42,921 bases of DNA from an uncultured bacterium (lineage in GTDB: Bacteria > Verrucomicrobiota > Kiritimatiellia > RFP12 > UBA1067): assembly GCA_902770045.1 (NCBI GenBank), contig CACXRO010000007.1, positions 1-42,921 on the forward strand, read 5' to 3'. The notes beneath the pieces are model-generated. The model ran no database searches. It was not told the DNA's origin and saw only the letters and a list, made by a program, of their open reading frames with translations. The first letter of the stretch is position 1. The number at the start of each line of letters is the position of its first letter. A program made the translations under genes and the position numbers. Below are positions 1 through 10,500 of this stretch, piece by piece.

Positions 1-2
1 AG

Positions 3-1991
3 GTGGCGATGGACAACTTCAACTTCGTCAACCTGCCGGACACCAACGGATGCTGCACCACCTGCTTCAGGGAGGGGTCCAACATTGTGGCGGAGTGCAC
101 CGCCCCGGCTCCCGGCCTTTCGTGGGCGGGGTATCCGCTGGACGGTGATTACTCTGCGACCGCCGACTCCGACGGCGACGGGCTTTCGGACTACGCCGAG
201 ATATTCGTCCACGACACCGACCCGTGGCTTGCGGACTCCGACGGCGACGGCATCACCGACGGCGTCGAGGTCGCCGACGGCACCAGCCCGCAGGACCTGT
301 CGTCGTTCCTCCGCCATGTCGCGGTGACCGTCGTGGAGGACGATCCCATGGCCGGGGTGACGAACTACGTCGCCTGGGGGACTTCGGCCTCGGGCTGGGA
401 GACCAACGACATGGTGGTTGCGCAGGGTCAGGTTTCGACTTTCGAGTTCACGATTGCGTCGCAGAGCGGCTCGGTCTACGTGAAGGCCTTCCGCGACGTC
501 GACCGCAACGGGGTGTTCGACCCCGGGACGGACCTGCTCGTGTCGAGGCTTCTCCCCGCCAGGGAGACGAGCACGTCCGTCACCATCCGCTTCGGCGACC
601 TCGACGGCGACGGATTCGCCGACTCGCTTGAGCTTGCGGAGGGCACCGACCCCAACGACGCGAGGAGCTACTGCTTCAACCTCGCCCTGGTCGAGCGCGG
701 CGTCGTGGGGACGACCAACGACATGACTGCCGTGGTGGTGTTCGGCGAGGAGGTCGTCCACGGCCCGGTCGTCGTCTCCAACGGCGTCTTCGAGGCCGAC
801 GTCGGCCACCTCGTGGCGACGAACCGGGAAGCCGTTACCGTCTATTTCTGGGACGACGCCAACTCCGACGGCATGCGCGACGACGGCGAGTTCTCCATCT
901 CGCGCACAGTGGCGATATCCGGCCACGAGAACTCCGTCACCAACGACTTCCAGGCCGAGCTCATGGACCGCGACCGGGACGGTATGCCTGACTGGTGGGA
1001 GCTTGCCAACGCCGCCGCAGGCATGTCGCCGTACACTTCCGGCGACGCTAGCCTGGATCCTGACGGCGACGGGCTGGTCAACCTGCATGAATACTGGGCG
1101 AACTGCAATCCACTCGTATACGACGGAACGAACACCCTGCTTTCTGTGTGCGCAAGGTCGATTGACGATAGGATACGCAATGTAGTTCCGTCAAACTCGG
1201 TAGCGCTATTCGTCGACTATTTCACCAACGGTGCCGATACCAACTTCATCGCCAACACGAATTGCTGGGCTCGGGACTTGAACTTGTCCTGCGTTAGCGT
1301 GTGGCATGGCGACAACGGGGACTATGGATCAAAAACTGCAACGGCGATAACTCGCCGACATGTCATTTTGTCAAGTCATTGGTGGGCATACAACAAACGC
1401 TATTATTTCTGCGATACTAATGGAGTAGTGTATACAAGATCAATAGTCAATGATGTTGTAATATCTGATGATCTGAGACTAGGGAGGCTTGATGAGCCAT
1501 TGCCGTCGACCATCAAATTGCCGAAGATTCCGCCGGCTGACATTGCGAACTATGTTTCGAGTGGGAAGTTTCTACCAACGCTTTGCGTTAACCAGGAGAA
1601 AGCCGCTACCGTTCTCGAAATTGACGATTTAGACATTGATGTAGTGTCTTCGGGCGGAGGACATTATCATCATTATGTGCGAACCGCTACGGACAATGTC
1701 GTTTCCGGCGACCGACACGCAATAAGGGCTGCAACGCTTGGCGGCAATTCCAGCACTCCAGTATTCCTGGTTGTAGGCAACGACTTGGTGTTTGTCTTTT
1801 CGAAGCATCTCGGTTCATGGACGGAGTTAACTTGGTGCAATTTCTACGGCCCGGCAACTATGACTCGCGCATCAGCTGTTCAACAACAGATAGACGTTTG
1901 GGAAGGCGCTGACGCTGGCCAATATCAGATGGAGCTATTGGATCTTGGGCAATTTGATAAATCGGTGAACGGGGGTGTCCATAATGAATAG
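3..1991 (+). CDS. Surface protein with thrombospondin-3-like repeats and trypsin-like C-terminal domain (5' partial)
   Basis: The frame is already open at the window edge, so the true start lies upstream; the GTG at 3 is only the first possible start seen here. The N-terminal half carries Asp/Gly-rich calcium-binding motifs of the thrombospondin type 3 kind (DSDGDGLSD, DSDGDGITDG, DLDGDGFADS, DPDGDGLVN), usual in secreted stalk-like proteins. The C-terminal third resembles a trypsin fold: RRHVILSSHW supplies a TAAHC-like His (about residue 459), SDDLRLGRLDEPL a DIALL-like Asp (about 489-490), and GGNSSTPVF a GDSGGP-like Ser (about 583). The triad is my inference from order and spacing; the GNSSTP oxyanion box is atypical. 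Base composition falls visibly after about position 1100, so the peptidase part differs from the repeat part. The end overlaps the next gene by 8 bases. The extracellular location is inferred. Confidence 0.75.
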   Translation: MAMDNFNFVNLPDTNGCCTTCFREGSNIVAECTAPAPGLSWAGYPLDGDYSATADSDGDGLSDYAEIFVHDTDPWLADSDGDGITDGVEVADGTSPQDLSSFLRHVAVTVVEDDPMAGVTNYVAWGTSASGWETNDMVVAQGQVSTFEFTIASQSGSVYVKAFRDVDRNGVFDPGTDLLVSRLLPARETSTSVTIRFGDLDGDGFADSLELAEGTDPNDARSYCFNLALVERGVVGTTNDMTAVVVFGEEVVHGPVVVSNGVFEADVGHLVATNREAVTVYFWDDANSDGMRDDGEFSISRTVAISGHENSVTNDFQAELMDRDRDGMPDWWELANAAAGMSPYTSGDASLDPDGDGLVNLHEYWANCNPLVYDGTNTLLSVCARSIDDRIRNVVPSNSVALFVDYFTNGADTNFIANTNCWARDLNLSCVSVWHGDNGDYGSKTATAITRRHVILSSHWWAYNKRYYFCDTNGVVYTRSIVNDVVISDDLRLGRLDEPLPSTIKLPKIPPADIANYVSSGKFLPTLCVNQEKAATVLEIDDLDIDVVSSGGGHYHHYVRTATDNVVSGDRHAIRAATLGGNSSTPVFLVVGNDLVFVFSKHLGSWTELTWCNFYGPATMTRASAVQQQIDVWEGADAGQYQMELLDLGQFDKSVNGGVHNE

Positions 1992-2604
1992 AAGCATATT
2001 TCTGCTGGCGTTGTCTGTAGCCATGTCGGGTAGTGCTGCGACATACGAGTGGACCGCCGGCATTGTGCCGGGGAGCGTATGGGGGAGCCCGGAAATTAAA
2101 CTATATACGATTGGTGGCGGCGTGTACGTTGACAGTTCCATTAATGCGATAGCAGATACTGACGGGAGCTTTATTGGATATCGCAACGATACCGGCGTGT
2201 ACTTGAAACAACAGGATCAAGACACAACACCCATGCCGGTGGGCAACAACTATTGGGTTGTCGCCTATTATGGAGACATCCTCAACCATGAAACAATTGC
2301 CACGATGGAAAGGATTGAACTTTGCAACTGGGAGGATTATTCATCGACTGGCGGGACCCTTATTGATAACCCTGAAGATTTTTATCTTGGATCTATGTCT
2401 ACTGGTTATTGGTCGTCGGACGGAGTAGATCGCTTCAGTTGGTATCACCTGTCATTGGATGACGAATTGCAAATGTCCCTCATTGACGCTGGCATTGGCT
2501 TTTATGGCGAGTCTGTTGTTGTTGGTTTGTCGCCAGAGCCGTCGTCATTGCAGCTTCTGCTCGTCGGGCTTGCGTGCTTTTCACTGCGCCGTCGACGAAG
2601 ATAG
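1984..2604 (+). CDS. PEP-CTERM sorting-signal protein
   Basis: A 206-residue protein of unknown role. It starts with a signal peptide (MNRSIFLLALSVAMSGSAA) and ends with a classic PEP-CTERM tail: SPEPSS at about residues 183-188, a short hydrophobic stretch, then an arginine cluster at the C-terminus. In known systems this tail is recognised by an exosortase, which cleaves near the PEP motif; an exosortase is encoded at 28717-29562. The ATG at 1984 is chosen because GGGGGTG lies 6 bases upstream; a GTG at 1975 would add three residues. The start overlaps the stop of the preceding gene, so translation is probably coupled. The central part has no domain I recognise. Base composition is clearly lower in GC than most of the window. 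Confidence 0.8.
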   Translation: MNRSIFLLALSVAMSGSAATYEWTAGIVPGSVWGSPEIKLYTIGGGVYVDSSINAIADTDGSFIGYRNDTGVYLKQQDQDTTPMPVGNNYWVVAYYGDILNHETIATMERIELCNWEDYSSTGGTLIDNPEDFYLGSMSTGYWSSDGVDRFSWYHLSLDDELQMSLIDAGIGFYGESVVVGLSPEPSSLQLLLVGLACFSLRRRRR

Positions 2605-2617
2605 GCCGAAATCATCG

Positions 2618-2638
2618 CCCCGCGCGGTGGGGATTTTT
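2618..2638 (+). terminator. Probable rho-independent terminator after the PEP-CTERM gene
   Basis: CCCCGC and GTGGGG can form a 6-bp stem (one G-T wobble) with a 3-base loop, followed directly by ATTTTT. It begins 14 bases after the stop codon. The stem is short, so confidence is moderate. Confidence 0.5.
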
Positions 2639-2646
2639 GGTATAAT
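2638..2646 (+). promoter_or_regulatory. Extended -10 promoter of the non-coding interval
   Basis: TGGTATAAT matches the extended -10 box (TGnTATAAT) seen before other genes here. No coding start lies close downstream; the first gene starts 400 bases later, so transcription from here would produce a long leader or a separate RNA. No convincing -35 box is visible. Confidence 0.5.
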
Positions 2647-2652
2647 TCACCC

Positions 2653-2955
2653 ATCTCGCGAGGCTAGGGAGGCGGGCGCCTCCTGACGCGGCGCGGGGTG
2701 ATAGTCCGGAAAACGGGCAAGTAGTCAGGCCTCTCCGCGCCATGCGCGGCCGCCGCGAACGCCCCGCCAGACGTTCATCAATGTAGCATCAACGCTACAC
2801 GTCGTTCCTCGGAAAACTGCAACATTTCATTTAGCGAACGACATGTAAGTGGAGATGCGCCCATCTGGGCGCATTTTCTCTTCATGTATTCGCTAAGGCC
2901 CGTTGCAGGGCTTCCGAGGAGTGCATGAGTGGAAATGCGCTCTTTTTCATGCATA
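2653..2955 (+). other. Structured non-coding interval: compound palindrome and duplicated hairpin
   Basis: No credible gene lies between 2605 and 3045. The interval holds a nested imperfect palindrome: TCCTCGGAA (2806-2814) with TTCCGAGGA (2912-2920), CTGCAAC (2817-2823) with GTTGCAG (2902-2908), TTAGCGAA (2831-2838) with TTCGCTAA (2889-2896), ACATG (2841-2845) with CATGT (2883-2887), and ATGCGCCC (2855-2862) with GGGCGCAT (2867-2874), whose tip is followed by TTTTCTC. A second smaller hairpin, TGCATGA (2922-2928) with TCATGCA (2947-2953), repeats the core AGTGGA(G/A)ATGCGC of the first. Upstream are GGAGGC/GCCTCC and TGTAGC/GCTACA hairpins. It could be a regulatory RNA, a leader of the methylase operon, or a mobile-element end. 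I could not match it to tmRNA, RNase P, SRP or 6S RNA. Confidence 0.6.
2853..2880 (+). terminator. Terminator-like hairpin at the tip of the palindrome
   Basis: ATGCGCCC-ATCT-GGGCGCAT followed by TTTCTC has the form of an intrinsic terminator, with GAGA/TCTC extending the stem past a bulge. Because it is nested in longer pairings, it may instead be the distal stem of a larger RNA or DNA fold. Confidence 0.45.
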
Positions 2956-2990
2956 AATGCGGTGTTTGCGACGGTTATGCGCAGAACTGA

Positions 2991-3015
2991 GATTTCGTCC
3001 GCGCCGTAATCTCAC
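2991..3015. repeat. 25-bp dispersed repeat, copy 1
   Basis: This stretch is identical at 24 of 25 positions to 42526-42550 (one G/A difference), while the flanks on both sides differ. It contains inverted GAGATT (2989-2994) and AATCTC (3008-3013). It lies just before the methylase start. Confidence 0.65.
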
Positions 3016-3045
3016 ACAAAGGCGCGGAGGGCATAGAGGCAGGGA

Positions 3046-4104
3046 ATGGGCGACAATGCGACACTGACATCGGCGAAGAAGGCGAAGCAGGACGAGTTCT
3101 ACACGCAGTATGCCGACATCCAGACGGAAATGAACGCCTACCTTGAATACGATTCTGCCGTATTCAGGGGGAAGACGATACTTCTTCCTTGCGACGATCC
3201 CGAGTGGAGCAACTTTACGCGCTATTTCGCGGAGAACTTCTCCGCGCTCGGGCTGAAGAAGCTCATATCGACAAGCTATTCGCCCGAGGCGAAGACGGCG
3301 AAGTACGGTTCGCTTTTCGAGTACGCCGCTTCGCAAGACGACGCGACGCCGAAGAACGAGAGAGGCAAGATATTCGTTCTCGACCATGACGTGACCGGTG
3401 ACGGCAAGGTGAATTTCGAGGATATCGAATGGACGTATCTCAAAGGCGACGGCGATTTCAGAAGCGATGAAGTGAGGAGGTTGCGCGACGAGGCCGACGT
3501 GATAATCACCAATCCGCCGTTTTCCCTGTTCCGGGAGTTCCTCGCTTGGATTATTGAAGCTGACAAGCAGTTTTCCATCATAGGGAACCGCAACGCAATA
3601 ACCTACAAGGAGGTGTTTCCGCTGATCAAGGCGAACAGGATATGGCTCGACAATCCGTTTGTGCGAGGGGCGGGATACTTCAAATCGTCGATGGAAGTCG
3701 ACAAGACTCTAAGCTACTACAATTCGCACGACTACAGGGAAGGGTTCATTCGCGTTCCTGGCGTGAGGTGGTTTACCAACCTTGAGCATGGCCGGCGACA
3801 CCAGCCGCTGCAGCTTATGTCGATGGCAGACAACATAAAGTATTCGCGGCACAAGGAAGTAAAAGGAGTCGGCTACCAGAAGTACGACAACTACGATGCG
3901 ATAGAGGTGCCGTTTACCGATGCCATTCCGAGTGACTATGATGGAATCATGGGAGTCCCAATTTCATTCCTCGACAAGTATTGCCCAGAACAGTTTGAGA
4001 TTGTGAAGTTTCGCACAGGAGATGACGATAGGGATTTATGTATCAATAGCAATTGTCCGTATTTTCGAATACTCATCCGTCATAGAAATGGAGGGCAAAA
4101 GTGA
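3046..4104 (+). CDS. EcoRI-family adenine-specific DNA methyltransferase
   Basis: A 352-residue protein that resembles the EcoRI methylase family (Pfam EcoRI_methylase). These enzymes transfer a methyl group from S-adenosylmethionine to adenine N6 in a recognition site. The catalytic motif NPPF is seen at about residues 156-159 (TNPPFSLFREF), and the family signature DDPEWSNF near residue 51 follows the hydrophobic strand TILLPC. The length is slightly above the roughly 325 residues of M.EcoRI. The ATG follows GAGGCAGGGA, a good ribosome site. The stop overlaps the start of the DUF262-HNH gene by four bases (GTGA), so both are made from one transcript. GC content is lower than in the neighbouring housekeeping genes, suggesting transfer. 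It could also be an orphan methylase, but the coupling argues for a modification-restriction pair. The target site cannot be read from sequence. Confidence 0.88.
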   Translation: MGDNATLTSAKKAKQDEFYTQYADIQTEMNAYLEYDSAVFRGKTILLPCDDPEWSNFTRYFAENFSALGLKKLISTSYSPEAKTAKYGSLFEYAASQDDATPKNERGKIFVLDHDVTGDGKVNFEDIEWTYLKGDGDFRSDEVRRLRDEADVIITNPPFSLFREFLAWIIEADKQFSIIGNRNAITYKEVFPLIKANRIWLDNPFVRGAGYFKSSMEVDKTLSYYNSHDYREGFIRVPGVRWFTNLEHGRRHQPLQLMSMADNIKYSRHKEVKGVGYQKYDNYDAIEVPFTDAIPSDYDGIMGVPISFLDKYCPEQFEIVKFRTGDDDRDLCINSNCPYFRILIRHRNGGQK

Positions 4105-5273
4105 AAACCGAACTTCGCACAGACATCACGGTAGGTGATATTTGCAAGGGCTTCTACTACAACACCCTTGAGGGGAAGGGTGTGAGGGGGTGGAGCGGGA
4201 AGCTCGTCATCCAGCCCGAGTACCAGCGAAACTACATCTATGCGAACGGGAAGGACGACGTGGCGGTGGTGGATTCGCTGCTGAAGAAGTATCCTATCGG
4301 CCTCATCTACTTCCTGAAGAATGGCGACGAGTACGAGGTCCTGGACGGACAGCAGCGAATAACGAGCTTTGGCCGCTTCGTGACGGGTCAGCTCGATGTC
4401 CTTGATGCCAACGGAATGCCGCACAAGTTCGACCCTGCGCACCATGGATGGCTGCTCAAGACGCCGCTCACGATCTACATTTGCGAGGGAGAGGGCGATG
4501 ATCCCGAGGCGGAGATAAAGGACTGGTTCAAGACTATCAACATTGCGGGCAAGCCGCTGAACGAGCAGGAGCTCCTGAACGCAACTTATTCGGGGCCGTT
4601 CATCACTGCGGCGAAGGCCGTGTACAGCAATTCGACCAACGCGCACATGAACAAGTGGAAGTGGTTTGTCGCGGGGGACGAGAAGCGGCAGGCTGTTCTC
4701 GCCGCGGCGCTGGACTGGGTGTCGAAAGGGCATGTCAGGGAGTATCTGAAGGACCACCGCTACAGCGCCGACATATCGGAGCTGACTGCGTATTTCGACA
4801 GCGTCATTGCCTGGATAGGCGGCGTATTCAAGGACACCAAGGACGAAATGTGTGGGCTTGAGTGGGGGCAGCTTTACGAGGCATACCACGAGAAGCCCTA
4901 CGACCCCGACAAAGTGTGGAAGCGCGTCGAGGAGCTTTATGCCGACGCAGACAACGAGATCGTCACGAGCAGACGAAACATATTCGAGTATGTCCTTGGC
5001 GGCGAGCGGCATCCTGAGTTGCTGAAGATACGCATCTACAAGAAGGAGGTCGCAAAGCGTGTCTACGCAAGGCAGACGGCCGAGGCGAAGGCCAAGGGCG
5101 TCTCTAACTGCCCGATATGCGCGAGCGGACATCCGGCGAACGCAAAGCGCATCTACGACTTCAGGGAAATGGAGGCCGACCACGTTACGGCCTGGTCGAA
5201 CGGCGGCGACACGAGCGAAGAGAACTGCCAAATGCTCTGCATACCGCACAACCGCGCGAAGGGGAATCGGTGA
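4101..5273 (+). CDS. DUF262 (GmrSD N-like) protein with C-terminal HNH nuclease
   Basis: A 390-residue protein with an N-terminal DUF262 domain and a C-terminal HNH nuclease domain. DUF262 is shown by QPEYQR near residue 36 and DGQQR at 82-86, the motif tied to nucleotide use in GmrS, SspE and BrxU. The HNH part has a zinc knuckle (CPIC at 337-340, paired with C376 and C380) and the residues D360-H361, N375 and H383. Together these suggest a nucleotide-regulated DNA endonuclease. It starts with GTG inside the methylase stop, behind GGAGGG. Known DUF262 nucleases usually carry DUF1524 and cut modified phage DNA; coupling to an adenine methylase suggests instead that the methyl mark protects the host. 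That role is inference. Confidence 0.85.
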   Translation: MKTELRTDITVGDICKGFYYNTLEGKGVRGWSGKLVIQPEYQRNYIYANGKDDVAVVDSLLKKYPIGLIYFLKNGDEYEVLDGQQRITSFGRFVTGQLDVLDANGMPHKFDPAHHGWLLKTPLTIYICEGEGDDPEAEIKDWFKTINIAGKPLNEQELLNATYSGPFITAAKAVYSNSTNAHMNKWKWFVAGDEKRQAVLAAALDWVSKGHVREYLKDHRYSADISELTAYFDSVIAWIGGVFKDTKDEMCGLEWGQLYEAYHEKPYDPDKVWKRVEELYADADNEIVTSRRNIFEYVLGGERHPELLKIRIYKKEVAKRVYARQTAEAKAKGVSNCPICASGHPANAKRIYDFREMEADHVTAWSNGGDTSEENCQMLCIPHNRAKGNR

Positions 5274-5333
5274 GTAACTGCAGCGACGAGACCGAGCACC
5301 AGCTCCCACGCTGAGCCGCGCCCATGCCATTTT

Positions 5334-5346
5334 TGGTATAATACGC
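5334..5346 (+). promoter_or_regulatory. Extended -10 promoter with ACGC, fumarase alpha gene
   Basis: TGGTATAAT is followed by ACGC, and the start codon lies 8 bases after the -10 box. With the usual 6-7 base distance to the transcription start, the mRNA would begin at or next to the ATG (leaderless). Confidence 0.7.
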
Positions 5347-5350
5347 GGCA

Positions 5351-6223
5351 ATGACGACCACAGCAACAGCAGAAAGGCTCGTGCGGCTCATCCGCGACAC
5401 CTCGTCCAAGATCCCGGACGACGTCCTCCAGGCGATTGCCGCGGCGCGCCGGCGCGAGCGGCGCGGCTCCTCCGCCGCGGCCGTGCTCGGCACGGTGCTC
5501 GAGAACTGCGCGCTGGCGCAGGAGAAGGGGGTGCCGCTCTGCCAGGACACCGGCACGCTCACGTTCTTCGTCGACCGCGCGCTGCGCGGACGCGTCACGC
5601 CGGCGTCGCTCCGCCGCGCCGTCGCACGCGCCACGGCGCTCGGCTACCTGAGGCGCAACTGCATCGACCCGGTGGACGGAAGGTCCTACGACGACAACTG
5701 CGCCGAGGGCGCGCCGGTCGTCCACTACGTCGACGCGGGCGAGGTCCCGGGCCTGCCGCCGCGCGGAGTGGCGCTGATCATGAAGGGCGGCGGCAGCGAG
5801 AACATGTCCCGCCAGTATTCGCTGCCCGACGCCGGGCTCGGCGCGGGACGAGACCTCGCCGGCGTCAAGGCGTGCATCCTCGACGCGGTGAAGCGCGCCC
5901 TCGGCTACGGCTGCGCGCCGGGCATCCTCGGCGTCGCCGTCGGCGGCGACCGCGCCACCGGCTTCGAGACGGCCAAGGCGCAGCTCCTGAGGCCGCTCGA
6001 CGAAAAGCCGCGTGCAGGCGACGCGCGTTCCCGCGCCCTCGCCAGGCTGGAGCGCGAGGTGCTGCGCGAGGCGAACGCGCTCGGCATCGGCCCGATGGGG
6101 CTCGGCGGCGCCACCACGCTCCTCGGCGTCAAGATCGCCGCGCGACCGCGCGTGCCCGCCTCGTTCTTCGTCACCATCGCCTACATGTGCTGGGCCTGCC
6201 GCCGCCGCATCATCTCGCTCTGA
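5351..6223 (+). CDS. Class I fumarate hydratase / tartrate dehydratase, alpha subunit
   Basis: A 290-residue protein matching the alpha (N-terminal) part of iron-sulfur hydro-lyases that interconvert fumarate and malate or dehydrate tartrate. Family marks seen are PLCQDTG (cysteine 64), KGGGSEN (145-151) and GYGCAPGILGVAVGGD (cysteine 188); C280 or C283 near the end may be the third cluster ligand. These enzymes need a beta subunit or domain carrying the second half of the active site, and none is encoded beside it or anywhere in the window. The beta gene may be elsewhere, or this protein may act alone in another role. The start sits 8 bases from a strong -10 box, with no ribosome site, consistent with a leaderless message. 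Strongly GC-rich, unlike the methylase genes before it. Confidence 0.85.
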   Translation: MTTTATAERLVRLIRDTSSKIPDDVLQAIAAARRRERRGSSAAAVLGTVLENCALAQEKGVPLCQDTGTLTFFVDRALRGRVTPASLRRAVARATALGYLRRNCIDPVDGRSYDDNCAEGAPVVHYVDAGEVPGLPPRGVALIMKGGGSENMSRQYSLPDAGLGAGRDLAGVKACILDAVKRALGYGCAPGILGVAVGGDRATGFETAKAQLLRPLDEKPRAGDARSRALARLEREVLREANALGIGPMGLGGATTLLGVKIAARPRVPASFFVTIAYMCWACRRRIISL

Positions 6224-6290
6224 TTGGTTGTCACCTGACTTGCCGCTACTTAGACATATTCTTGTCGTAGGGGAGTAGGAGGCGGCTGGC

Positions 6291-6325
6291 CATGGCAAAA
6301 TTTTTGTGACAAAACTTTTGCCATG
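6291..6325. promoter_or_regulatory. 10-bp perfect inverted repeat upstream of the ATPase promoter
   Basis: CATGGCAAAA (6291-6300) and TTTTGCCATG (6316-6325) are exact reverse complements separated by 15 AT-rich bases. It ends 13 bases before the extended -10 box at 6339, so it covers the -35 region and looks like an operator. The interval 6224-6353 contains nothing else I recognise. Confidence 0.5.
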
Positions 6326-6338
6326 AGGCGTTGGTTTA

Positions 6339-6351
6339 TGATATACTACGC
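6339..6351 (+). promoter_or_regulatory. Extended -10 promoter with ACGC, ATPase gene
   Basis: TGATATACT followed by ACGC; the ATG begins 6 bases after the -10 box, predicting a leaderless mRNA. Confidence 0.65.
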
Positions 6352-6353
6352 GC

Positions 6354-7466
6354 ATGAAAATGAACAACCCTTTTCTTACGGCGGGCTATGCGGGACCAGA
6401 ATACTTCTGCGACCGCGTCGATGAGACCAGGAAGCTCGTCAATGCCATAAAGAACGACCGCAACGTCACGTTGATAGCGCCGCGCCGCTATGGCAAGACG
6501 GGGCTTATCAGCAATGTGTTCGCGAGGCTTCCTTCCGCATACACAAGCATTTACATCGACATCTATTCCGCCAAGAACCTCGCCGCGTTCACGAAGATGC
6601 TGGCGAGCGCTGTGTTCGGAGCGCTTGATAGCCGTATGGAGAAGGCGATGTCCGTGCTGGCGACATTTTTCAGGAGTTGTCGTCCGACCGCCACGCCGCA
6701 GAGCGACGGGACGGTGAAGTTCTCGTTCGACATTACTTCCGACAACGCCGAATCGTCGCTTAAGGAGGTGTTCGACTACCTTAAGGCGCGTGAACGCCAG
6801 GTCGTGATTGCCATCGACGAATTCCAGCAGGTTCGCGAGTTTCCCGAAGAGGGGGTGGAGGCGCTTCTCAGAAGCTACATTCAGTTCGTTCCGTGGGTTC
6901 GGTTTGTCTTTGCCGGATCGCGCCGCCATCTGATGTCGGAGATGTTCGTCATGCCGCAGGGTGCGTTTTACCAGTCCACGCAGATAATGAATCTGGACGT
7001 GATTCCGCCGAAAAGCTATCTTTCCTTTGCGAGGGGTTTTTTCTCCACGGAGGGGTGGGAGGTTGACGAGGACGTGTTCATGGGGCTCTACAGGAGGTTC
7101 GACGGCGTCACCTGGTATGTCCAGGCGGTGCTGAACAAAGTATGGGAAACGCGCAGGTCGCTTGAAAATGACATCCAGGTCGATGCGGCCGTCAAGGAGC
7201 TCTACGAGGAAAGGGCGCTTATCTACCATGACCTTCTATGTGCGCAGAACGAAGCGTCGCAGGAACTCGTCATGGCGATTGCCCGCAATGGAATAGTCTC
7301 GGAGCCGACATCGACGGACTTTCTGTCCCGGAACGGACTGAGGGGCGCTTCGACGGTCAGGGCCGCGCTCAAGGACCTCGCAGGCAAGGATATTGCGTAC
7401 AAGGCTGAATCCGGCTGGATCGTCTACGACCGCCTCTTTGCGGAATACCTGCGATCGATACAGTGA
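6354..7466 (+). CDS. DEXX-box / archaeal-type AAA ATPase with C-terminal winged helix
   Basis: A 370-residue STAND-like ATPase of the group often found in many copies in Bacteroidetes and archaea. The N-terminus has the typical NNPF start and GPEYFCDR. Walker A is APRRYGKTG (about residues 42-50) and Walker B is VVIAIDEFQ (about 150-157), with FVFAGSRRH downstream as a likely sensor strand. The last hundred residues look like a winged helix (DFLSRNGLRGASTVRAALKD). The cellular role of this family is poorly known; defence, partner binding or mobile-element functions have been proposed. The start is fixed by the -10 box 6 bases upstream and the family N-terminus. It sits alone between an inverted-repeat operator and the sigma-fusion gene. 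GC content is moderate, in line with an accessory gene. Confidence 0.8.
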   Translation: MKMNNPFLTAGYAGPEYFCDRVDETRKLVNAIKNDRNVTLIAPRRYGKTGLISNVFARLPSAYTSIYIDIYSAKNLAAFTKMLASAVFGALDSRMEKAMSVLATFFRSCRPTATPQSDGTVKFSFDITSDNAESSLKEVFDYLKARERQVVIAIDEFQQVREFPEEGVEALLRSYIQFVPWVRFVFAGSRRHLMSEMFVMPQGAFYQSTQIMNLDVIPPKSYLSFARGFFSTEGWEVDEDVFMGLYRRFDGVTWYVQAVLNKVWETRRSLENDIQVDAAVKELYEERALIYHDLLCAQNEASQELVMAIARNGIVSEPTSTDFLSRNGLRGASTVRAALKDLAGKDIAYKAESGWIVYDRLFAEYLRSIQ

Positions 7467-7522
7467 AAATGTTGGGATACATCCTTGATTGAAACGGCCA
7501 GGTGAAGTTTGGCAAGAAACAT

Positions 7523-7550
7523 TTGAACCTTTTGCGTGGTATGCGATACT
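7523..7550 (+). promoter_or_regulatory. Promoter of the sigma-LamG gene
   Basis: TTGAAC (7523-7528) and GATACT (7545-7550) are 16 bases apart, with TG one base before the -10 box. Predicted transcription start is about 7557, leaving a leader of about 17 bases without a Shine-Dalgarno sequence. Confidence 0.45.
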
Positions 7551-7572
7551 AATATACGAAAACATACCACGC
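7534..7572. promoter_or_regulatory. Inverted-repeat operator around the sigma-LamG promoter
   Basis: GCGTGGTATG (7534-7543) and CATACCACGC (7563-7572) are perfect reverse complements with a 19-base spacer that contains the -10 box; the right arm ends one base before the ATG. The left arm lies upstream of the predicted transcription start, so the palindrome acts as DNA rather than as an RNA hairpin. Confidence 0.6.
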
Positions 7573-7573
7573 T

Positions 7574-10500
7574 ATGGATATTGTCGAAGAGCTGAGGAAT
7601 AACCGAGAAAACGGCGCAAAAAGGCTGGAAATCGAGTACAAGGTCGGTCTTATGACCATGGCCAGGCGTTTTTATGTCGACGAGACGGACGCCGAAGAGC
7701 TCGTGAACCGCACCTTCGCCGCCGTGGTCGACGGCATTGACGGCTATCTCGCGCGGTCGGCCTTCTTCACTTGGATGTGTCAGATCATGTCCAACATCTA
7801 CGCCGCCGACATGCGCAGGAAATCCAACAGCACCGTCACTTATCCCGGCGAAGTGCCGGACATGACCGACGAGGCCGGGGTAAGCCGCATATTCGACAAC
7901 ATTGACGCTTCGATCGTCCGCACGGCGGTGGAGAAGCTGCCGAAGGAAATGCGCGAGGTCATTTTGCTGCACTATTTTGCGGACATGTCCATCCCCCAGA
8001 TCGCCAAGTTCATCAGCATCCCGGCCGGAACCATAAAAAGCCGTCTCCACTATGCCCGCAAGGCGCTGGCGGCGAAGCTCGTGGGCAAGGCGAAGAAACC
8101 CGGTGTAAAGGCGCTCATCCTCGCGCTCGCGCTCTCGGCGCTGGCGGCGGTGGGTGCAGTCGGCGTAGTGGCGATCCGCTCCGCGGCAGCGCCAGAGACA
8201 GAGGAAGCCGAGGTTGTTTTTAACGCAAAGAGCACAGAGAACACAGAGGGTTCTTTGGAAACCAATGGGGACAGTCCCCAGCAATCTGAGGCGATAACTG
8301 ATAATTCTGAAGCAAATAACGAGGAAAACGCCATGAGCAACTCAATGCAGAAGGTATCAATGATCAAGACGCTTGCCGCTGCGGCGGCGCTGACTGCCGG
8401 CGCGGTGCTGGCGGCCGATCCGGGCGCGATCGAAGTCGTCGCCAGCAATTTCAGCACGGGGGAGTTCACCCTGCGCGTCCCAGCCTCTGAAAAGCCGCTG
8501 GAGCTCTACTGGGCGGCCGCGTGGGCGGACGACACGGCGGACTACGCCCAGTGGCGCGCGCCGGTCTTTCTTTCTAATATCCCCGCCGGCACGACGGAGG
8601 TGACCGTCACGGTCCCGGGCTTCAGTCCGGACGCGGCCTCGCGCTTCTTCCTCGCCGATCCCGACAACGCCGTGGTGACGCGGCCCGTCACCGTGATTGG
8701 CGGCAAGGACAGTTCCGGACATTTCAACTCGGCATTCGTGACCGGGCTCCATCCCAACTACGACTGGAAATACGACCTTGTCTTTGATGTGCCGGAGTTC
8801 GCCAGCGACCACCAGGCCTGGCTCCTCTGCCACCGCAACAGCAACGGCAATAATAATTCGCTCCTTCATTTCATCGTGCGCGCTTCCAACGACAAGAGAG
8901 TGCGTTTCGGCCACGGCTCGCATCACTCCATATATTCGACACCTACGATTGAGGCGGGTGTCAAGTATCAAGCGGCCATCAACGGGCGGGTCTGTGTGGT
9001 TTCCAATCTTGCCGACAATGTTCTCTTCGACACCTTGACGGCAAACGCGTCCATCCAGAACTACGGCGAATACTGGTTCTGGTTCGGCGCGTCGAGCGGC
9101 GCCAACGGCAAGAACTACAACACCGGCGACGGTTGCTCCTTCGCGCGGGTCTATTCGTTCAGGGCGTGGAACGGCTCGGGTGAGCTGGTGGGCGACTTCC
9201 GCCCGATGGTGACGAACAGCGTGGCCGGCTATTTCGACCTCGTGACGCGGCGGTTCTTCCAGTCCGGCGACGGGGTTACCGCAGGCGAGACGCACGTGTT
9301 CACGCCTTATGTCGCCTCCGCCGAGACGCAGCACGTCGATTCGCTCGTCGCGCACCTAGGCGCCCTGGTCGCCGTTTCGCCGGCGCTGGAGGTCGGTCTG
9401 GTCGAATGCGTGTCTGAAAGCCTGCCGTTCGTTATCGGCGGGATTCCGCTTTACGGCAGAAAATCAGTCGATGTCGGCGGCAGCGTAACCTTCAGCGTCC
9501 CGACGGAAAAGTTCATCTGGTGGGACGAAGCGACCAGAATGTCGTACCGCGTCGCCTCGGCAGGACTGCGCATCGACACCTACGACGCCAACAACGACGA
9601 GTTCGTCGTCGGGACGCCGCAGCCCGGACTCAGGAGCTATACCTTTACCCGCAACTCAGACACCGACGGTGTGCGGGTCGTCTGCCTCTGGGACGCGGAA
9701 ATGCTCGTCGATCCGCCCGACGGCCTGCGGGCGGAGTGCCTGCGGCTCGTCGATGTCGCGACGAATGCAAACGGCAAGACGGAAGTCGGTCACGGACCGT
9801 TCAATACCGGCGTCCACCCGATCCCGGCGACGACGCGCGTCTTTGTCGACGTTGGATTAGACAGCAACAACCGCACCGCCCAGAACTACCTCTCTCCTGT
9901 AACCGAGCGGCGCTTCTTCGGTTGCCGCGACGAGTCGGCCCACGGCCAGGATCCGGGGAAATGGCAGTACAATTTCCAGCTCAGCCGCGTGTGGCCGAAC
10001 CAATCTCAGCCAGCGCTGCGCGTGGACATGTGCAACTACATGGACGGAGCAGTGTCTCAAACCCAGTATTTCAATATCAACAATACGGCTCGTTTCGAAA
10101 TCGACCTCAAACCGACGACCGTCCGCCTCTACGACGTGCTTCAGAATGCGACGCATCTCGCCGAGATGAAGGACACCGGCTACGAGCGCTCCAGCGAGCC
10201 GCTCATCGGCACGCTGCACATCTTCGGGCAGCAGCGCCTCTCTGACACGACCGCGCCGCTCTGCGTGGACTACAACAACACGCGCTACTACACCTACGCG
10301 GTCTGGACGGACGGCGTCAACTTGTCGCGCGACTACGCGCCGTGCATCGACGCGGCAGGCAAGCCGGCGTTCTACGACCGCGTGGCCAGGAACTACATCT
10401 ACCCGATCGGCGACAAGGCGGAGTTCGTCGCGGAGTTCACGGGAACCGTAGGCACCAACTCGGTCTACGTGACGGGCGAGAACGAGAAGGGCGAGCCGGC

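Follow-up and report, generated by a model that had tools for sequence, protein, structure and literature searches.

Sequence comparison indicates that the methylase carries the specificity in a widespread pair of EcoRI-family methylase and DUF262-HNH nuclease

The analysed stretch of DNA, hereafter the window, comprises 42,921 nucleotides of a contig from an uncultured bacterium of the Kiritimatiellia. Its plus strand encodes an EcoRI-family DNA methyltransferase (M) and, directly downstream, a nuclease with a DUF262 and an HNH domain (R), both preceded by a structured leader. The locus contains the following features.

2640-2965, plus strand: structured leader of ~330 nt with a TATAAT -10-like box (2641-2646), a conserved block and a ~115-nt covarying hairpin (about 2806-2920), identified by fold, covariation and repeats
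3046-4104, plus strand: M, EcoRI-family N6-adenine DNA methyltransferase of 352 aa (PF13651 EcoRI_methylase E=2e-121, PADLOC MTase_II 1.5e-92, AF2 fold)
3511-3522, plus strand: NPPF catalytic motif, M residues 156-159, read from the sequence and invariant in 47 Ms
3643-3774, plus strand: V1, hypervariable cassette, M residues 200-243, presumptive target-recognition segment (conservation dip, 33 swappable classes, DNA identity ~0.3-0.5 in swap pairs)
4006-4068, plus strand: V2, second hypervariable segment, M residues 321-341, defined by its variability; the window copy resembles the M.EcoRI type
4101-5273, plus strand: R, DUF262 (ParB/Srx-like) plus HNH nuclease of 390 aa with a GTG start (PF03235, PF01844, PADLOC REase_II, AF2 fold)
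4344-4358, plus strand: DGQQR motif of the DUF262 domain, R residues 82-86, invariant in 53 Rs
5109-5270, plus strand: HNH nuclease domain, CxxC / DH / N / C..HN, R residues 337-390 (PF01844 3e-6, 4h9d Z 6.0, invariant residues)

The end of M and the start of R share the GTGA at 4101-4104, as a preliminary description of the locus had noted, and because the genes overlap they are probably expressed from a single transcript. A GGAGG-like site lies 5' of each gene. Open reading frames on the opposite strand were dismissed as mechanical, all domain evidence being on the plus strand. M matched the PF13651 profile with 405.8 bits (curated cut-off 26.4) and contains NPPF, which assigns it to the M.EcoRI family. 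The Pfam scan of R returned PF03235 (GmrSD_N/DUF262, 1e-18) and PF01844 (HNH, 3e-6); it gave no match to DUF1524 and no helicase or ATP motor, DUF262 and HNH being the only domains found. The HNH residue set CPIC..DH..N..MLC..N was located at R positions 337-384, and both DGQQR and the Cys, Asp, His and Asn residues of the HNH domain were unchanged across 53 aligned R relatives. Type II models of PADLOC, namely MTase_II (PDLC03297) and REase_II (PDLC03418; 3e-68 over 8-371/372), cover the two proteins nearly end to end. A search of NCBIfam gave no match, and a sequence search of solved structures returned nothing for M at E<=1, including no M.EcoRI structure, and nothing meaningful for R. The preliminary description had reported intact NPPF, DGQQR and HNH motifs and a nuclease that joins DUF262 to an HNH domain, unlike GmrSD, SspE and BrxU, and these observations were borne out; the DUF262 fold of R is of a nucleotide-binding type.

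In the AF2 model of R (pLDDT 84.9, pTM 0.59) the N-terminal domain aligned with BrxU (Z 8.8), SspE (Z 6.8) and CTP-bound ParB (Z 6.6), and the C-terminal domain with the HNH nuclease 4h9d (Z 6.0); Z values below ~8 are weak support alone, and the assignment of M and R is carried by the sequence families. The model of M (pLDDT 81.5) aligned with the N6-adenine DNA methylases M.TaqI (Z 9.6), CamA and MmeI (both Z 8.8), among other Rossmann methylases.

Methylase and nuclease are separate genes lying side by side, as in Type II systems, and this arrangement is conserved. Scanning genome contigs with R identified 80 loci from many phyla, 78 of them with upstream sequence to examine; a same-strand M was found upstream of R in 77 of these and directly adjacent in 64. 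One R (locus L030, genome G442) had no M match in its MAG, which may be incomplete. Among loci of the virus collection IMG/VR, M was adjacent in 68, further off in 6 and lacking in none, while 6 left no room for it, so that all 74 loci with room to examine had a same-strand M upstream. When loci were chosen by M alone across the phylum, R adjoined M in 26 of 30 and R.EcoRI in 2. Two EcoRI-family methylases of the phylum (L133, L140) adjoin neither DUF262-HNH nor R.EcoRI and are possible orphans, and one relative (L121) shows the reversed order with R upstream of M. At ~13 loci other genes lie between M and R (PIN toxin, transposase-like, unknown ORFs); no common family was apparent by eye, and they were taken as insertions. 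Distances among Ms and among Rs were correlated (r=0.79), a value reached in 0 of 2000 permutations. Plasmids of Pediococcus (9 kb), Moraxella (9 kb) and Enterococcus carry the pair, and in the Flavobacterium phage vB_FspS_laban6-1 (L085) a complete pair adjoins the tape-measure gene. From these comparisons, M and R appear to form a widespread, conserved and co-inherited mobile two-gene restriction-modification system. The pairing is catalogued and not new as such, since PADLOC models match both proteins and plasmid and phage records in GenBank/RefSeq annotate them as neighbours, although our literature search, which did not extend to REBASE, found no published description of it. The preliminary description had proposed an uncatalogued arrangement in which methylation by the system itself keeps the nuclease from cutting. 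Its coupling of the two genes is supported and the absence of a catalogue entry is not; its view of the nuclease is taken up below.

G+C content is 51% and 58% in the two genes, lower than in the window (66%) and in 436 kb sampled from the genome (65%). Synteny with a same-genus genome resumes at the fumarase promoter (window position 5334), which makes the operon look inserted, and it was probably acquired recently. The leader folds more stably than shuffled sequence (z=-7.5 for 2600-3045), and over 13 copies its consensus comprises 62 base pairs, 19 of them with compensatory changes; no Rfam match was obtained in 1500-7600 at E<=1. Within this genome (G000), copies precede the window pair, a second M-R pair on contig C3, a PabI-type RM system, a Dcm plus MutH-type RM system, BREX brxC-pglX and a DUF4417 gene, and a truncated copy precedes a RhuM gene. 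Copies in relatives of the genus precede further M-R pairs and a UvrD-like helicase with a Mod-like methylase. A phylum-wide element is not claimed, since matches of the RNA model elsewhere in the phylum were weaker (<70 bits) and lay before mixed genes. The leader could be a shared regulatory leader or RNA, or a recombination site for cassettes, and the site that it marks seems to exchange defence operons. At G000:C17 (L164, about 14.6-19.5 kb) three consecutive copies, the first truncated, stand before RhuM, DUF4417 and the PabI-type RM system in a cassette-array-like order. On G254:C15 of a genus relative (L295) the flank on the PEP-CTERM side recurs (window 1-1075, at 92%), and after it come the same leader and an M-R pair of a different subfamily. 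The second pair of this genome (L095, G000:C3:48457-50674, minus strand) is intact, shares ~36-46% protein identity with the window pair and has the same leader; an R 98% identical to its R occurs in G254:C17 with a different V1. In 436 kb of G000 the motifs ATCGAT, CTAG and GGCC occur at 0.31, 0.14 and 0.64 of expectation, possibly reflecting avoidance in response to further restriction systems that the genome encodes.

The variability of V1 and V2, their exchange between systems and the contrast to EcoRI-linked methylases described below suggest that these two segments of M recognise the target. We take Tyr204 of M.EcoRI to be a residue that crosslinks DNA, and it would fall within V1 (YELYG). 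Both cassettes are exchanged across deep lineages, and several of the 33 V1 classes are common to two R subfamilies that are only ~40% identical. An R that reads the target of M should change together with V1, and no such change was seen. Over 157 pairs R identity correlated with that of the M core at r=0.79 and with that of V1 at r=0.15, and once M-core identity was matched, R identity was nearly equal in pairs of the same and of different V1 class. In comparisons across subfamilies (R ~40% identical), sharing a V1 class altered R identity by -0.002. A search of the 157 pairs for 15-residue blocks of R that covary with the cassettes of M found none beyond the permutation null (p=0.24 for V1, p=0.34 for V2); V1 within M, used as positive control, gave a delta of 0.55. 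By this comparative test, which takes V1 and V2 as the likely recognition segments, R appears to lack the determinants of its own for the methylase target that a Type II nuclease has. Instead, recognition segments differ between the modification components of systems whose restriction component is nearly unchanged, as in BREX, Type I and Type III systems, which indicates that specificity is carried by M and not by R.

Natural cassette swaps were also found, in which Rs that are 97-99% identical adjoin Ms with unrelated cassettes. Two systems of one genus (G254:C54 and G330:C40) have Rs with 3 differences in 387 residues, and their DNA is 93-100% identical across most of the 5' part of M and across R; identity is 37-45% in V1, 32-53% in V2 and 75-83% between them. 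The second system of this genome (G000:C3) and G254:C17 differ at 7 residues of R and have unrelated V1 segments. Two systems within one Bacteroidota MAG (L081 and L082) have Rs that are 97% identical next to different cassettes, and L018 and L019 form a similar swap pair. Throughout the swap pairs the differences in R (3, 7, 10 or 11) are scattered, and their positions are not common between pairs. L016 and L018, which share a V1 class, differ in R by 9.

A different pattern was observed for methylases linked to R.EcoRI. Eight such Ms from several phyla carry a single V1/V2 type, with V1 identities of at least 64% in all 28 pairs at core identities of 59-82%, whereas only 10% of DUF262-linked pairs at similar core identity reach that V1 level. 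Since the R.EcoRI-linked Ms group in a single clade (support 0.998) nested within the tree of DUF262-linked Ms, this lock on V1/V2 counts as the behaviour of one lineage and not of several independent ones. On the tree, linkage to R.EcoRI appears as a partner change within the DUF262-linked family. Among the residues of M only T76 was lost after the switch, and no surface for binding R stands out on M. Eight DUF262-linked Ms have an EcoRI-type V1, and their predicted target is GAATTC or a closely similar sequence. The 436 kb sampled from the host show no avoidance of GAATTC (observed/expected 1.08), a result of little weight given that the window V1 belongs to a class other than that of EcoRI and that the operon was probably inserted recently.

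The best reading of these comparisons is that M alone would set the specificity, with R as a generic and probably nucleotide-gated nuclease acting through M or its mark. In the form that we consider to have a somewhat better than even chance of being correct, the M protein itself guides R and reads the target via exchangeable V1 and V2 segments. M would methylate an adenine within this target; having located its site, it would only methylate or release where the site is hemimethylated or fully methylated (self), and would allow R to load where it is unmodified (foreign). Binding or hydrolysis of a nucleotide by the DUF262 clamp or switch might then license the HNH domain, and R would cut or nick near the M site. 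DUF262 has been proposed to bind and hydrolyse NTP (PMC4619093). Target recognition by V1 and V2, the action of R through M, the nucleotide gating and the cleavage are our extrapolation from comparison.

The preliminary description had presumed a nuclease that reads the target itself, as in an orthodox Type II system in which methylation blocks R and a few differing residues of R set its specificity. PADLOC files the two proteins as a Type II methylase and nuclease, and R.EcoRI, which does read its own site, can take the place of DUF262-HNH in the same family slot. The swap pairs, however, differ in R at few, scattered and unshared positions, L016 and L018 differ about as much within one V1 class, and over the 157 pairs neither V1 nor V2 has a covarying block in R; we therefore regard a self-reading R as unlikely, and the comparison places specificity in M. 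It is about equally improbable that R reads N6-methyladenine regardless of context, such that M supplies only the mark and the density of methyl groups holds R off or sets its NTPase state while unmethylated DNA is attacked. This would fit with the insensitivity of R to the target of M, and the DUF262 relatives SspE/DndI and BrxU do sense DNA modifications (PMC12707154, PMC11662687), but host or plasmid DNA poor in sites would be at risk, the rapid exchange of M specificity would bring no obvious targeting advantage, and a non-exhaustive look at R revealed no recognisable extra reader domain. That R is a modification-dependent Type IV nuclease beside an unrelated methylase is very improbable, even though DUF262 is common to GmrSD, BrxU and SspE, given the adjacency across phyla, the gene overlap, the co-inheritance of M and R and the lack of a DUF1524 match in R.

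Guidance of R by M would have several implications. The novelty appears to lie in the division of specificity between M and R and not in their pairing, and a very common two-gene family now filed as ordinary Type II would work by specificity that the methylase supplies. Specificity could then change without the self-killing to be expected of a system whose methylase and nuclease have to change in step. To our knowledge this would be the simplest re-targetable restriction system. The pair also offers a direct test of how the DUF262/ParB-like switch functions, and it puts the classic EcoRI methylase into a family that is usually paired with DUF262-HNH and not with R.EcoRI. More tentatively, with a chance that we put at slightly below even, the pair may represent a minimal and previously unrecognised class of restriction-modification, composed of one methylase that alone determines specificity and one ParB-like, nucleotide-gated DUF262-HNH protein as universal effector, in which swapping two short cassettes of M would re-target both self-marking and cutting and for which R.EcoRI would be a later partner.

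Among known systems, EcoRI (M.EcoRI, PF13651, with R.EcoRI) is of the same methylase family, with 46% identity to the window M over the full length, and likewise consists of two side-by-side genes carried on small plasmids. Its nuclease, however, is the PD-(D/E)XK enzyme R.EcoRI, and its methylases have V1/V2 fixed where DUF262-linked Ms show 33 V1 classes. The Type IV nucleases GmrSD and BrxU share with R a DUF262 domain with DGQQR, and BrxU also the fold (Z 8.8, as given above), but these enzymes contain DUF1524, lack a partner methylase and cleave modified DNA (PMC4619093, PMC12707154), whereas R has the PF01844 HNH domain, no match to DUF1524 and a dedicated methylase. SspE/DndI resemble the window pair in joining a DUF262 nuclease (fold match of R to SspE Z 6.8) to a modification module that provides the self mark; their mark is a phosphorothioate and their nuclease has DUF1524, while the partner of R is a single N6A methylase. 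The PADLOC models for RM type II name only the parts and are silent on the division of specificity. V1 and V2 of M behave like the exchangeable recognition domains in the modification components BREX PglX, Type I HsdS and Type III Mod: PglX provides specificity for both methylation and defence (PMC11341690), and the recognition domains of Type I and III systems move freely (PMC3983042). BREX, Type I and Type III systems are, however, multi-subunit complexes with ATP-driven motors or ATPases, whereas the system described here comprises two genes and no helicase.
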